Shown here one piece after another: positions 30,100 to 34,208 of a stretch of DNA of 64,000 nucleotides. Position 1 is the stretch's first letter. Each line of letters starts with the position of its first letter. The position numbers and the translations under genes are program-made. The notes below the pieces were generated by a model. It was not told the DNA's origin and did no database searches. It saw only the letters and a program-made list of their open reading frames with translations. Source of the stretch: Croceivirga sp. (lineage in GTDB: Bacteria; Bacteroidota; Bacteroidia; Flavobacteriales; Flavobacteriaceae); the NCBI GenBank assembly GCA_028284665.1, contig JANQRG010000019.1:1-64000 (forward strand), given 5' to 3'.

Positions 30100-31182
30100 T
30101 TAAGCATTAATGATCTTTTCCTGATGGTTGATGGATTCCTGGTGTATTGCTTTGAACATTCTTAATACAAACTCTTCACTTAAACCTCTCTGCTCTCCTT
30201 CTAAAATCATATGACCCAAAATAGAATTCCATCGGTTGGTCTGGAGCACCGCTACGTTACGCTTCTTTTTAAGTTCTCCGATACCATCCGAAACCTTCAT
30301 TCTTTTTCCTAACAGATCAATCAACTGATTGTCCAATACATCTATCTGCGCTCTTAAGTTTGCCAATTGTGCATTGTATTCGGCTTCCTGGTCAGTTTCC
30401 TTTCGCATCTTTAAATCAATAAACATCTGTTTTAGCGTAGTAGGGGTAACCTGCTGTGCGGCATCGCTCCAGGCGTTGTCGGGATCACTATGGGTTTCTA
30501 TCATTAATCCGTCAAAATTAAGGTCCAAGGCCGTTTGGGAAACATCAAATACCATATCTCTTTTCCCCGTGATATGGCTGGGATCATTGATCAAAGGCAG
30601 GTCCGGAAAGCGGCTTTGCAGTTCAATGGCCAATTGCCATTCCGGAATATTGCGATACTTGGTTTTCTCATAGGTGCTAAAACCCCGATGGATCACTCCC
30701 AATTTTTTAATGTTTGCACTATGTAACCGTTCTACCGCTCCTAACCACAATGATAGATCCGGATTGACCGGATTTTTCACCATGACCACTTTGTCCGTAC
30801 CGGCCAATGCATCGGCGATCTCCTGTACTATAAATGGGCTTACCGTAGATCTCGCACCTATCCATAACAGATCCACATCATATTCCAGTGCCAGGTCTAC
30901 ATGTGTTCTGTTGGCTACTTCAGTAGCTGTTTTTAATCCTGTCTCTTCCTTAACCCGTTTTAACCAATTGAGCCCAATAGCTCCCACCCCTTCAAAATTA
31001 CCAGGTCGGGTACGAGGCTTCCATATACCGGCCCGGTAATAGCTCACATCCGAATCCTTCAATTCATTTGCGACAAGCATCACCTGTTCTTCCGTTTCGG
31101 CACTGCAAGGCCCTGCAATTACAAGTGGATGGGGTAAGTTCATATCATCTAACCAATTTCTAAGTTGTTTTGAGTTCTCCAT
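30100..31182 (-). CDS. Bifunctional DAHP synthase / chorismate mutase
   Basis: 360 residues. The N-terminal ~270 form a KDO8P-type 3-deoxy-7-phosphoheptulonate synthase (HPLVIAGPCSAETEEQVMLV, YYRAGIWKPRTRPGNF, INDPSHITGKR). The C-terminal ~90 form an AroQ-type chorismate mutase (LANLRAQIDVLDNQLIDLLG then KRMKVSDGIGELKKKR). It thus carries the first step of the shikimate pathway and the branch step to prephenate. Last gene of the pheA operon, two bases from tyrA. Confidence 0.93.
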   Translation of the reverse strand: MENSKQLRNWLDDMNLPHPLVIAGPCSAETEEQVMLVANELKDSDVSYYRAGIWKPRTRPGNFEGVGAIGLNWLKRVKEETGLKTATEVANRTHVDLALEYDVDLLWIGARSTVSPFIVQEIADALAGTDKVVMVKNPVNPDLSLWLGAVERLHSANIKKLGVIHRGFSTYEKTKYRNIPEWQLAIELQSRFPDLPLINDPSHITGKRDMVFDVSQTALDLNFDGLMIETHSDPDNAWSDAAQQVTPTTLKQMFIDLKMRKETDQEAEYNAQLANLRAQIDVLDNQLIDLLGKRMKVSDGIGELKKKRNVAVLQTNRWNSILGHMILEGEQRGLSEEFVLRMFKAIHQESINHQEKIINA

Positions 31183-31184
31183 AG

Positions 31185-32054
31185 CTAATCCAAGGTTTTA
31201 GTAAGCGGTATTCCTTTTAAAATTTGTTTTATTCGATTTGTGTTGTTCATTTCATTGTAGATCCCTTCAAAATCATTAGCCTCCATCATTTTTTTAAACG
31301 CTTCCAAATTTTCAATATACTCTTCCAGCGTTTCAATAACATTCTCCCTGTTTTGTTCAAAAATCGGCGTCCACATATCGGGAGAACTTTTAGCCAAGCG
31401 GACCGTACTCTCAAATCCACTTCCGGCCATATCAAAAATATCCCGTTCATTTTTTTCTTTCTGGATCACCGTCTTCCCCAACATAAAGGAGCTGATGTGA
31501 GACAGATGTGAGACATAGGCAATATGCCTATCATGTGCTACCGGATTCATATAGCGAATACGCATCCCTAACTTTTGAAAAAAATGCAATGCCCGCTCCT
31601 GCAGGGGAAAAGCTGTTTTTTCGATTTCGCAAATAATATTGGTCTTCCCTTCATAGAGTCCGTCAAAAGCTGCCTGCGGACCGGAAAACTCTGTTCCCGC
31701 AATAGGATGGCAGGCCAAAAAAACATGCCGCTTAGGATGATTTTCAACAGTTTGGCAAATCAGGGATTTTGTAGATCCGGCATCAACTACCACACAATCC
31801 TCTTTCACTGCATCCAAAATTCCCGGAAGTTCCTCTACCAAAGCGTTCACCGGGATAGCCAAAATAACCATATCGGCTTCTGCCATAGTTTTTGTAGTAG
31901 CCCTCTCATCCACCAAGCCGATTTGAATCGCCTTTTCCAGGTGATCTTTATTCGCATCCAATCCGGATAGCACGACTTTTGGATACACTCTTTTCATCCC
32001 CTTTGCAAAAGACCCTCCAATTAACCCAACCCCGATGATAACTACACGTTCCAT
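31185..32054 (-). CDS. tyrA: Prephenate dehydrogenase TyrA
   Basis: 289 residues. The Rossmann motif GVGLIGGSFAKGMK is at the N-terminus. Substrate-site elements are CHPIAGTEFSGP, HDRHIAYVSHLSHISSF and AGSGFESTVRLAKSSP. It makes 4-hydroxyphenylpyruvate for tyrosine. Third gene of the operon. Confidence 0.94.
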   Translation of the reverse strand: MERVVIIGVGLIGGSFAKGMKRVYPKVVLSGLDANKDHLEKAIQIGLVDERATTKTMAEADMVILAIPVNALVEELPGILDAVKEDCVVVDAGSTKSLICQTVENHPKRHVFLACHPIAGTEFSGPQAAFDGLYEGKTNIICEIEKTAFPLQERALHFFQKLGMRIRYMNPVAHDRHIAYVSHLSHISSFMLGKTVIQKEKNERDIFDMAGSGFESTVRLAKSSPDMWTPIFEQNRENVIETLEEYIENLEAFKKMMEANDFEGIYNEMNNTNRIKQILKGIPLTKTLD

Positions 32055-32055
32055 T

Positions 32056-33198
32056 TCAAAATCGCTCTATTGCTTCTATAATTTTTTCTTCGGCCACACA
32101 GAGGGAAAATCGGATATACCCTTCTCCGTTACTTCCAAATATTGTGCCTGGAGCAATGAATATATTTTTTTGGTAGAGTACCTCATCAATAAAGTCTTCA
32201 GCAGATTTTGACCCCTCTGGCAATTTGGCCCAAATGAACATTCCGGCAGCATCTGGGTCATAGGTACAGTGCAGCTTATCTACCAATTTAAACATCAACT
32301 CCCTTCTTTTTTTATACGTTGCATCCAAACGCGCAAACCATTCTCCCCCGCTTTCCAGTGCGGCAATTGCTCCTTTTTGGATCCCATAAAACATTCCCGA
32401 ATCCATGTTGCTTTTAACCTTGAGCACTGCCAGTACATGGGCTGCGCTTCCCAAGACCATGCCCACACGCCACCCTGCCAGGTTGAATGTCTTGCTAAGT
32501 GAGTTGAGTTCCATAGCGCAATGTTTTGCCTCAGGGACTTGTAAAATACTTGTGGGGGTATCGTTTAGTACAAAACTGTACGGGTTATCATTCACTAATA
32601 AAATATCATGACGACTGCAGAAATGCACCAACTTTTCCATTTTTTGGAGTGTGATTTTGGCTCCTGTGGGCATGTTGGGATAGCTGATCCACATCAACTT
32701 TACTTTAGACAAATCCTCCTGCTCCAGCTTTTGCAAGTCCGGTAGCCAATCATTGTCTTCACTCAAATCGTATTGCAACGGCACAGCACCAATGAGCTTG
32801 GTCACCGAGGTGTAGGTTGGATACCCCGGATTTGGCACCAAAACCGTATCACCCGTATTTAAAAAGGCCATACTGATGTGCATAATGCCCTCTTTTGACC
32901 CGATTAAAGGTAAAAGCTCGCTCAACGAATCAATAGTTACTCCAAAACGCTCTTTGTAAAACCCGGCCATAGCATCACGGAGCTCCGGTAAACCTTGATA
33001 GCTTTGGTATTGATGTGCGCCGTCCTGATACAGGACACCTGTAAGTCCTTCTAAAGCCGTGGCCGGCGGGGGAAGGTCAGGACTACCAATACCCATGTTG
33101 ATTATAGGACGCCCTTCAGCAACTAAGGATTTAACTTCCCGTAGTTTTTTAGAAAAATAGTACTCCTGAACGCTATGTAATCTATCTGCAACTGTCAT
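32056..33198 (-). CDS. PLP-dependent class I/II aminotransferase (aromatic amino acid branch)
   Basis: 380 residues, fold type I. The PLP lysine is in NSLSKTFNLAGWRVGMV, and the substrate carboxylate site is in FSLCVAEEKI. It lies between pheA and tyrA, so it most likely transaminates phenylpyruvate and 4-hydroxyphenylpyruvate or prephenate; the exact substrate is inferred from context. It overlaps pheA by four bases. Confidence 0.9.
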   Translation of the reverse strand: MTVADRLHSVQEYYFSKKLREVKSLVAEGRPIINMGIGSPDLPPPATALEGLTGVLYQDGAHQYQSYQGLPELRDAMAGFYKERFGVTIDSLSELLPLIGSKEGIMHISMAFLNTGDTVLVPNPGYPTYTSVTKLIGAVPLQYDLSEDNDWLPDLQKLEQEDLSKVKLMWISYPNMPTGAKITLQKMEKLVHFCSRHDILLVNDNPYSFVLNDTPTSILQVPEAKHCAMELNSLSKTFNLAGWRVGMVLGSAAHVLAVLKVKSNMDSGMFYGIQKGAIAALESGGEWFARLDATYKKRRELMFKLVDKLHCTYDPDAAGMFIWAKLPEGSKSAEDFIDEVLYQKNIFIAPGTIFGSNGEGYIRFSLCVAEEKIIEAIERF

Positions 33199-34025
33199 GG
33201 TAACAAGGCATTTTTGTATTCTCCAAGCACGGTAAAGTCCTCAGACATTATTTCCAACAACGATTTGGATTTGGCAAAATGGTCGTAATGCTCAAAAGTT
33301 ACATCCACAAAGAACGCATACTTCCATGGGGTTTCTATTACCGGTAAGGATTGAATTTTGGTAAGGTTGAGATTGCAATCACTCATTACATTCAACACCG
33401 TAGCTAAACTACCGCGTTTGTGATCCGTGATAAAACGGAGCGATGCTTTATTGATCTCCTCTTTAGGTAGTACTTTATTCTGCCTTTTTAGAATTATAAA
33501 ACGCGTAGCGTTGTTTTTAATGGTTTGTATTTCGGCTGCAATGATATCCAAATCATAAAGCTCCGCTGCGGCCTTCGGAGCAATTGCTGCTACATGTGAC
33601 AAACGATCCTGTCGGATTTTCTTCGCCGTTTCAGCAGTATCTGCATCCTCAACCAGTTTCAGATGCGGAAACTGTTTTAGATACTCCATGCACTGCAAAA
33701 GGGCCATGGGATGCGTCCGTACTTCTTTTATATCCTGTAGCGTTTGTCCCTTTAACACCATTAGGTTATGGTGAATGTTCAAATAGTGCTCTCCTATAAT
33801 ATGCAACTTCTTATGGCACAACAGGTTGTAATTGGGAATAATGGAACCCGCAATAGAGTTTTCAATGGCCATTACGCCCTTATCTGCAGTGCCTTCCAAA
33901 AGATGATCGATCAGATTATCGAAAGAAAGGCATTCTACCAGGTCAATGCCAGCTCCAAAATACTCCTGGGCTACCTGATGATGATTGCTCCCTTGAATTC
34001 CCTGTATAGCTACTTTTAACTTCAT
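33195..34025 (-). CDS. pheA: Prephenate dehydratase PheA
   Basis: 276 residues. Catalytic domain with IQGIQGSNHHQVAQEYFG, GVMAIENSIAGSIIPNYNLL and NNATRFIILKR, then a C-terminal ACT domain (LATVLNVMSDCNLNLTKIQS) for phenylalanine feedback. It converts prephenate to phenylpyruvate. First structural gene of the operon; the T-run of an attenuator terminator ends four bases upstream of its ATG. Confidence 0.95.
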   Translation of the reverse strand: MKLKVAIQGIQGSNHHQVAQEYFGAGIDLVECLSFDNLIDHLLEGTADKGVMAIENSIAGSIIPNYNLLCHKKLHIIGEHYLNIHHNLMVLKGQTLQDIKEVRTHPMALLQCMEYLKQFPHLKLVEDADTAETAKKIRQDRLSHVAAIAPKAAAELYDLDIIAAEIQTIKNNATRFIILKRQNKVLPKEEINKASLRFITDHKRGSLATVLNVMSDCNLNLTKIQSLPVIETPWKYAFFVDVTFEHYDHFAKSKSLLEIMSEDFTVLGEYKNALLP

Positions 34026-34028
34026 TCC

Positions 34029-34059
34029 AAAAAAAAAGCCCCGAAAATATGTCGGGACT
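34029..34059 (-). terminator. Attenuator terminator of the aromatic operon
   Basis: Minus strand AGTCCCGA (34059-34052), 7-base loop, TCGGGGCT (34044-34037; one G-T pair), then nine Ts (34037-34029). A competing antiterminator pairs GGGACT (34097-34092, near the end of the leader peptide) with AGTCCC of the terminator's first arm. Confidence 0.85.
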
Positions 34060-34084
34060 TTACGTTTCTTATCGATGATATATC

Positions 34085-34156
34085 CTAGAACAGTCCCTTA
34101 CTTCTTTGAAAAAAGAAGTAGTAGTAAAAACCGTTCCAGAAATATATTCTTTTCAT
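34085..34156 (-). CDS. Phe/Tyr-rich leader peptide (23 aa)
   Basis: ATG at 34156 to TAG at 34087-34085. Of 23 residues, six are Phe, four Tyr and one Trp. They are clustered as YFW at 5-7 and a run of seven aromatics, FYYYFFF, at 10-16. It is followed 25 bases on by a terminator in front of pheA. Such composition in a short leader upstream of a Phe/Tyr operon is the signature of transcription attenuation by ribosome stalling. A perfect 7-base hairpin CTTCTTT/AAAGAAG overlaps the Phe codons, a likely pause structure. Confidence 0.85.
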   Translation of the reverse strand: MKRIYFWNGFYYYFFFQRSKGLF

Positions 34157-34200
34157 GATCTTGATATTCAGGGCTAAGATTAGCTATTCTATTGAAAATT

Positions 34201-34208
34201 CAAAACTA
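34201..34208 (-). promoter_or_regulatory. -7 element of the pheA leader promoter
   Basis: Minus strand TAGTTTTG matches the Bacteroidota -7 consensus TAnnTTTG and lies 45 bases upstream of the leader ATG; no convincing -33 element was found. The rest of 34209-34400 shows no gene and is AT-rich. Confidence 0.45.

Follow-up and report, generated by a model that had tools for sequence, protein, structure and literature searches.

The pheA operon in our window (the whole 64-kb stretch of DNA analysed, from a host genome of 4.59 Mb in 51 contigs) is preceded by an aromatic-rich leader open reading frame (ORF) and a terminator, as a first-pass annotation of the sequence had observed. We consider it very probable that the two form part of a classical four-strand ribosome-mediated attenuator, by which the supply of charged tRNA-Phe and tRNA-Tyr would control pheA, aspC, tyrA and an aroG/chorismate mutase (CM) fusion gene. 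Ribosome-mediated attenuation had been proposed in that annotation, and it is supported here by conservation of the reading frame among relatives and by covariation of both the antiterminator and the terminator. From comparative evidence we infer that the leader is transcribed and translated, that ribosomes stall in it, in which direction it regulates, and that it senses Tyr as well as Phe. The four genes, identified from Pfam, are consecutive and on one strand; together with the elements ahead of them, the features are as follows.

34174..34204 (-), promoter-like element: TTTG, an 18-nt spacer and TAATCTTAG; read from the sequence
34085..34156 (-), leader peptide ORF MKRIYFWNGFYYYFFFQRSKGLF, 23 codons and TAG; read from the sequence, with conservation and a shuffle control
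34127..34139 (-), strand 1 of the protector hairpin 1:2, running from the last base of codon 6 through codon 10; fold and covariation
34112..34120 (-), apical 5' arm of hairpin 1:2 (the pause hairpin of the first-pass annotation); fold, no clear covariation
34099..34107 (-), apical 3' arm of hairpin 1:2; fold, no clear covariation
34085..34097 (-), strand 2 (GGGACTGTTCTAG), which pairs with strand 1 or strand 3; covariation and swap test
34052..34061 (-), strand 3, the terminator 5' arm, with AGTCCC (34059-34054) pairing alternatively with strand 2; covariation
34035..34044 (-), strand 4, the terminator 3' arm; covariation
34029..34037 (-), nine-T run of the terminator, its first Ts overlapping the stem base; read from the sequence
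33195..34025 (-), prephenate dehydratase gene pheA, first in the presumed operon; PF00800 (PDT), E = 1.7e-58
32056..33198 (-), class I/II aminotransferase, here called aspC; PF00155, E = 6.5e-53
31185..32054 (-), tyrA, prephenate dehydrogenase; PF02153 (PDH_N), E = 2.9e-32, and PF20463 (PDH_C), E = 2.2e-24
30100..31182 (-), aroG/CM fusion (DAHP synthase and CM_2); PF00793, E = 2.3e-38, and PF01817, E = 6.1e-22

The leader was read directly from the window sequence and is as it had first been described, with 23 codons of which 11 are aromatic (six Phe, four Tyr and one Trp), including seven in a row (F YYY FFF, codons 10–16, 34129-34109 on the minus strand). The combination of an aromatic-rich ORF and a terminator occurs once in the window on either strand, at the pheA locus, and the RNA of the two folds at z = -6.3 relative to 200 dinucleotide shuffles. 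The element at 34174..34204 resembles the Bacteroidota promoter consensus, and transcription probably starts about 10–14 nt 5' of the leader ATG. At 113 of 118 loci in the genus and family (all but L111, where the script chose another ORF), a TTAG core is found 12–36 nt ahead of the leader ATG, whereas 50 mononucleotide shuffles averaged 15.7 such loci and never exceeded 23. A stricter promoter motif (106/118 loci) was set aside in favour of the TTAG core count: the window's own box fails it, the stretch matched there being a different one, and it also matched the wrong stretch in some relatives.

To define a leader elsewhere, we used a fixed criterion of an ATG-initiated ORF of 15–32 codons with at least 8 aromatic codons at a density of at least 0.33, no more than 600 nt from pheA. 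Searching for PheA gave a match in 11/11 genus genomes and 268 of 299 sampled family genomes. The loci examined came from our own genome, its ten relatives in the genus and 108 other genomes of the family (28 + 80), and an aromatic-rich ORF of this kind lies 5' of pheA at all 119 of these, a set that leaves outside it 158 of the 268 PheA-bearing family genomes, including the most diverged. Among controls, such an ORF turned up in 7 of 595 dinucleotide shuffles and in 3 of the 119 reverse-complemented regions. It is thus the aromatic frame, and not just the terminator, that relatives keep, and a short leader ORF rich in codons for the end products of its operon, as expected for this class of attenuator, is present both in the window (11/23 codons) and in the relatives (119/119).

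Folding of the window RNA placed the leader and the terminator in one scheme. Left free, the RNA forms a long hairpin over nearly the whole ORF, pairing codons 6–10 with codon 20 to the stop. This protector hairpin 1:2 sequesters the antiterminator strand 2; it was absent from the first-pass annotation and is added by the present analysis. The alternative pairing that had been proposed joins GGGACT of strand 2 (34097-34092) to AGTCCC of strand 3 (34059-34054); both segments are where they had been placed, and this antiterminator covaries among relatives. Strand 3 can otherwise pair with strand 4 to give the terminator stem (34061-34035, minus strand), the predicted energies in the window being -26.1 kcal/mol for 1:2, -9.8 for 2:3 and -13.0 for 3:4. 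The terminator had been called perfect with nine Ts; the nine Ts and the full pairing stand, and strict perfection does not, as one of the ten pairs is G-U. The T run ends at 34029 and the pheA ATG begins at 34025, so that three bases separate them.

On this scheme, RNA polymerase would start about 10–14 nt ahead of the leader, and the fate of the transcript would depend on the ribosome. When Phe and Tyr are abundant, the ribosome would reach the stop codon and sit on strand 2 (GGGACTGTTCTAG); with strand 2 covered, strand 3 would be free for strand 4, the terminator would form and the operon would be off. When Phe or Tyr is scarce, the ribosome would stall in FYYYFFF, covering strand 1 and blocking 1:2, and strand 2, just past its leading edge, would pair with strand 3, preventing the terminator. 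If the leader were untranslated, the strong 1:2 hairpin would form, leaving strand 3 to the terminator and the operon again off.

We assessed these pairings for covariation in an alignment (A1) of 56 genus and family elements, consisting of 48 cluster representatives of the 133 in the largest group and eight of the 46 outside both large groups. The antiterminator 2:3 (CGGGACT with AGTCCCG) was paired in 93.4% of cells, with 6 double-change cells versus 0.9 in shuffles, and 0–2 of 500 shuffles scored as high on each of five measures. For the terminator 3:4, 97.2% of cells were paired, with 8 double-change cells versus 0.8 (0/500 shuffles). The protector 1:2 was paired in 89.3% of cells, compared with at most 54.7% for slid versions, although the structure scored came from the window's own fold, a choice that favours it over slid versions; it showed 23 double-change cells versus 13.7 ± 2.5 (0/500 shuffles, and 0–10/500 over the five measures). 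Its weakest pair, which joins the third base of codon 7 to that of codon 23, is unformed in 22 of the 56 sequences. All three pairings therefore coevolve in one large group, with the proviso that kinship among sequences inflates shuffle tests of this kind. The CTTCTTT/AAAGAAG hairpin over the Phe codons, described in the first-pass annotation as a pause hairpin, is present and is paired in 87.7% of cells (at most 69% when slid), but its double changes are not in excess (6 cells versus 4.2, 112/500 shuffles). We rejected it as an independent conserved feature and retain it as the tip of 1:2.

A second clade, aligned separately (A2, 40 sequences), has the motif CGAGAC/GTCTCG instead of CGGGAC/GTCCCG, and this G-C to A-U change between the two clades is compensatory. 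Within A2, 2:3 is paired in 240/240 cells and contributes no covariation because it varies by wobble only, while 1:2 lies weakly above shuffles (3 to 336 of 500, depending on the measure). The protector overlaps the control codons, as expected for attenuators of this class, with weaker support in the second clade. Two further comparisons covered all groups. In a swap test on 171 non-redundant leaders, each leader scored a mean of 17.6 with its own terminator arm and 15.4 ± 0.15 with permuted arms; none of 300 permutations reached the own-arm mean, and 149 leaders lay above their mean foreign score and 22 below. Both the covariation and the swap test point to an antiterminator that excludes the terminator. 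Leader ORFs were also more stable than their synonymous-codon resamplings (mean z of -1.75, -1.41 and -1.09 in groups of 104, 33 and 46, with 98%, 100% and 87% of z-scores below zero), and codon choice therefore seems to serve the RNA fold.

The spacing between the control codons and the antiterminator is narrow. In 192 non-redundant leaders we compared the terminator 5' arm with the sequence lying between aromatic run and terminator and took the best helix; it starts 9–11 nt past the aromatic run in 169 and within 7–14 nt in 188, the remaining four, at 29 nt, being an artefact of the script's choice of aromatic run. When the last control codon occupies the A site, a ribosome shields about this length of mRNA downstream, and strand 2 would therefore begin at the leading edge of the stalled ribosome. 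The antiterminator strand lies in all three reading frames (39, 82 and 71 leaders), and is therefore conserved as RNA and not as peptide. Moreover, leaders with an early stop or an indel (L077, L081, L095, L096 and L119) retain strand 2 with the peptide tail lost. Taken together, the variety of frames and the tail-less leaders that keep the strand indicate that the tail acts as RNA and that what holds steady is how far the strand lies from the control codons. The end of the leader stop codon is more variable, lying anywhere between 5 nt upstream and 34 nt downstream of the helix start. In L144, L149 and L152 it falls 31–34 nt beyond the start of the best antiterminator helix, and a ribosome terminating there would thus not mask the helix in a simple way.

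These data bear on three other explanations. A nascent peptide that binds an aromatic amino acid and stalls the ribosome, as in TnaC, would not rely on a lack of charged tRNA; the strong conservation of the peptide over codons 5–16 in the largest group of leaders (group 1, below) is what such a mechanism would predict, but conservation at codons 6–10 is also explained by the pairing of strand 1. Between clades, the order of F, Y and W, the length and the N-terminus all vary while codon content and RNA pairing persist, and the tail is in different frames or, in some leaders, lost. We therefore give a TnaC-like mechanism a very small probability. Smaller still is the probability of translational control, in which a hairpin beside the ATG would hide the pheA start. 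The window itself would allow it, with the T run three bases from the ATG, yet among relatives the terminator can lie as little as about 7 nt or upwards of 200 nt from pheA. The smallest probability falls to a plain terminator, outside any control by translation, whose T-rich frame is incidental; it would be a constitutive attenuator or mark where an sRNA ends. T-rich leaders do readily yield Phe codons, and RNAalifold predicted the terminator as the sole structure on A1, but chance frames of this kind arose in only 7/595 shuffles against 119/119 loci, and neither the coevolution of the antiterminator and of 1:2 nor the narrow spacing from the aromatic run would be expected of it.

Among 80 named loci taken from genome contigs, which share species with the 119-locus set and are not independent of it, 78 have a leader. 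The two exceptions in this count are L191 (Allomuricauda nanhaiensis), where no aromatic leader was found though the upstream sequence was long enough, and L223, which has only 152 nt upstream. The order pheA-aspC-tyrA-aroG/CM is kept in 77 of the 80, the other three having the first two or three genes only. A search of 159 genomes across the class found PheA in 42, of which 38 are outside the family, and 37 of these upstream regions were examined (G434, a partial match, was left out). An aromatic leader is present at 24 of the 37, comprising 22 found by the ORF criterion, L122 (start codon unclear) and L133 by eye; L125 is weak. No leader was found at the other 13. An intrinsic terminator lies between leader and first gene, as expected of an attenuator: the script found one at 214 of 220 loci with an accepted leader ORF, and at five of the 22 (L141, L146, L147, L150 and L151), where the script found none, it was identified by eye. 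The leader goes with the aroG/CM gene, which lies downstream of pheA at 23 of the 24 leader loci (in the 24th, L133, the contig ends just past tyrA) versus 3 of the 13 leaderless loci; two further leaderless loci have aroG/CM upstream of pheA.

A covariance model run over 295 class genomes matched 77 genomes at E ≤ 0.01, a tally that is unusable as a count of elements because 15 of the 30 loci inspected look like background, the others being 13 pheA leaders and 2 Thr/Ile leaders. It gave one match in our own genome. At three loci, pheA is preceded by two successive aromatic leaders: L148 (ORFs at -348 and -186) and L154 (-283 and -167), each leader with a terminator found by the script, and L141 (-315 and -173), with terminators found by eye. 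We read these as putative tandem attenuators.

For the question of which amino acids are sensed, we compiled 183 distinct leader peptides from the 214 loci with leader and terminator. Phe and Tyr both occur in all 183 and Trp in 121, with means of 6.0 Phe and 3.3 Tyr per distinct leader. Group 1, comprising 108 distinct 23-codon DNA leaders, is strongly conserved in peptide over codons 5–16, with Phe at codon 14 in 108, codon 15 in 107 and codon 16 in 98, and Tyr at codon 13 in 101 and codon 11 in 90. The Trp codon of the window leader (codon 7) lies within strand 1, where pairing may be the reason for its retention.

We also considered operons without tyrA, of which seven were found using tblastn and PF02153 (G347, G319, G386, G450, G420, G389 and G417); PF20463 was a poor probe for tyrA, as it missed Bacteroides ihuae in the control set. 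In G347 and G319 tyrA is at another place in the genome, and in G386, G450 and G420 tyrA matches are weak and at other places only. G389 and G417 (leaders L152 and L154) gave no PDH_N match at E ≤ 0.001 genome-wide; both have a strong match to an aromatic amino-acid hydroxylase (PF00351), and Tyr may be made from Phe in these two. Four other genomes (G413, G444, G379 and G339) have a weak, divergent PF02153 match directly downstream of aroG/CM and are counted with the tyrA-bearing operons. The leaders of the seven tyrA-less operons contain 1–5 Tyr codons (one in L154, 3–5 in the other six), and Y/(F+Y) is 0.48 in these 7 operons and about 0.45 in 13 with tyrA, by hand grouping. We therefore rejected any dependence of the Tyr codons on a tyrA within the operon, as the ratios are alike and tyrA-less operons keep their Tyr codons. 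Upstream of the stand-alone tyrA genes L278 and L289, no separate leader with at least 5 aromatic codons was found.

The same attenuator might instead sense Phe alone, with Tyr and Trp codons as passengers tolerated for their likeness to Phe codons. The excess of Phe over Tyr codons (6.0 versus 3.3) would suit this, as would the near-invariant Phe at the last two positions of the run in group 1 (107/108 and 98/108) and the L154 leader, whose tyrA-less operon has 5 Phe codons and 1 Tyr. Nevertheless we consider it unlikely, given that Tyr is present in 183/183 distinct leaders and held at positions 11 and 13 of group 1 (90 and 101 of 108), that the six other tyrA-less operons retain 3–5 Tyr codons, and that the Phe_leader consensus translates to a Phe-rich start without Tyr. 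One sensor for both Phe and Tyr is plausible, and appears likely because Tyr codons occur in every distinct leader compiled and persist without tyrA; a sensor of the whole Phe/Tyr branch also fits the leader sequences better than a reading tied to tyrA.

We noted some further observations in the same genomes. In our own genome, an open frame of about 590–610 aa (G000:C46:34742-35551) matches PF00351 (Biopterin_H) in two separate pieces, and a like frame is found in G347, G386, G450, G420, G378 and G338. Also in our own genome, L277 (G000:C22, upstream of hisG) has, 343 nt before the HisG match, a leader MKVRISHHHIDSIAQAR with three consecutive His codons, followed by what by eye is a terminator-like hairpin and T run; this is a candidate his attenuator. 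L297 (G386) and L299 (G479) have a Thr/Ile-rich leader (MIFNTSIITTIIITTG...) about 220 nt before an aspartokinase-like gene, an amino acid kinase beginning MKVLKFGGTSV. The leader and the kinase gene of L297 are separated by a terminator with a T run, and this would be a thr-type attenuator of similar design to that of pheA.

Ribosome-mediated attenuation requires a ribosome close behind RNA polymerase. To our knowledge, such coupling is not universal in bacteria and has been little studied in Bacteroidota, whose ribosomes mostly initiate without Shine-Dalgarno pairing. A well-conserved attenuator with three coevolving pairings would allow coupling in this phylum to be tested readily in vivo, and its mixed Phe/Tyr run makes the question of one sensor or two directly testable through codon replacement. 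The pheA leader is in addition a candidate for inclusion in Rfam as a family and a likely point of control over the supply of aromatic amino acids. More broadly, we see about an even chance that it represents a Bacteroidia-wide attenuator family, matching no Rfam family at threshold, that jointly reads Phe and Tyr (often with Trp), gates entry to the aromatic pathway, tracks aroG/CM and not tyrA, keeps its Tyr codons where a hydroxylase seems to make Tyr, and is sometimes stacked in series. Tight coupling between RNA polymerase and the ribosome would in that case be an old trait of Bacteroidota.

The switch type is classical and well known, whereas this Bacteroidota pheA family is hardly described. 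A survey of attenuation across bacteria by Lopatovskaya and colleagues, from 2010, may include Bacteroidetes predictions. A blastn search of the window stretch against plasmids found no match, and no Rfam family matched at threshold in 20 related loci. In Flavobacterium psychrophilum, the transcriptome gave clues for leader-peptide attenuation before amino-acid operons, and pheA was named among 5' structured elements shared with other Flavobacteriaceae genera and without Rfam hits (PMC9723704, ISME Commun. 2021). That element shares its gene and bacterial family with ours; the one passage of the main text that mentions pheA gives no leader sequence, alternative pairings or spread past the family, and supplements may add detail (PMC9723704). 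The Bacteroid-trp motif (RF01692) is listed as a candidate cis-regulatory RNA of Bacteroidetes in Table 1 of a further study, which also has a pheA motif, from Actinobacteria (PMC2864571, Genome Biol. 2010). By its name Bacteroid-trp is tied to trp genes, a different operon from pheA, and it gave no threshold match in the 20 loci. In the portions of the literature covered (PMC9723704, PMC7366714, PMC4833913, PMC12121999 and PMC2864571), a direct description of a Bacteroidia pheA leader was not found. As far as searched, the four-strand anatomy, its coevolution, the class-wide spread, the retention of Tyr codons and the occurrence of tandem copies are new.

The best Rfam match of the window stretch is Phe_leader (RF01859), at 25 bits against a gathering threshold of 55 (E = 0.082). 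Enteric pheL-pheA attenuation works through a leader peptide, a protector, an antiterminator and a terminator, and the window element is like it in having a Phe-rich leader followed by these same parts before pheA. It differs in mixing Phe and Tyr where the start of the Phe_leader consensus reads Phe without Tyr, in an operon that includes tyrA and aroG/CM, and in a strand 2 that lies inside the coding frame. In reading more than one amino acid it resembles thrL (Thr/Ile) and ilvL (Ile/Val/Leu) of E. coli, each of which responds to more than one end product of related pathways; here the pair would be Phe and Tyr, often with Trp.
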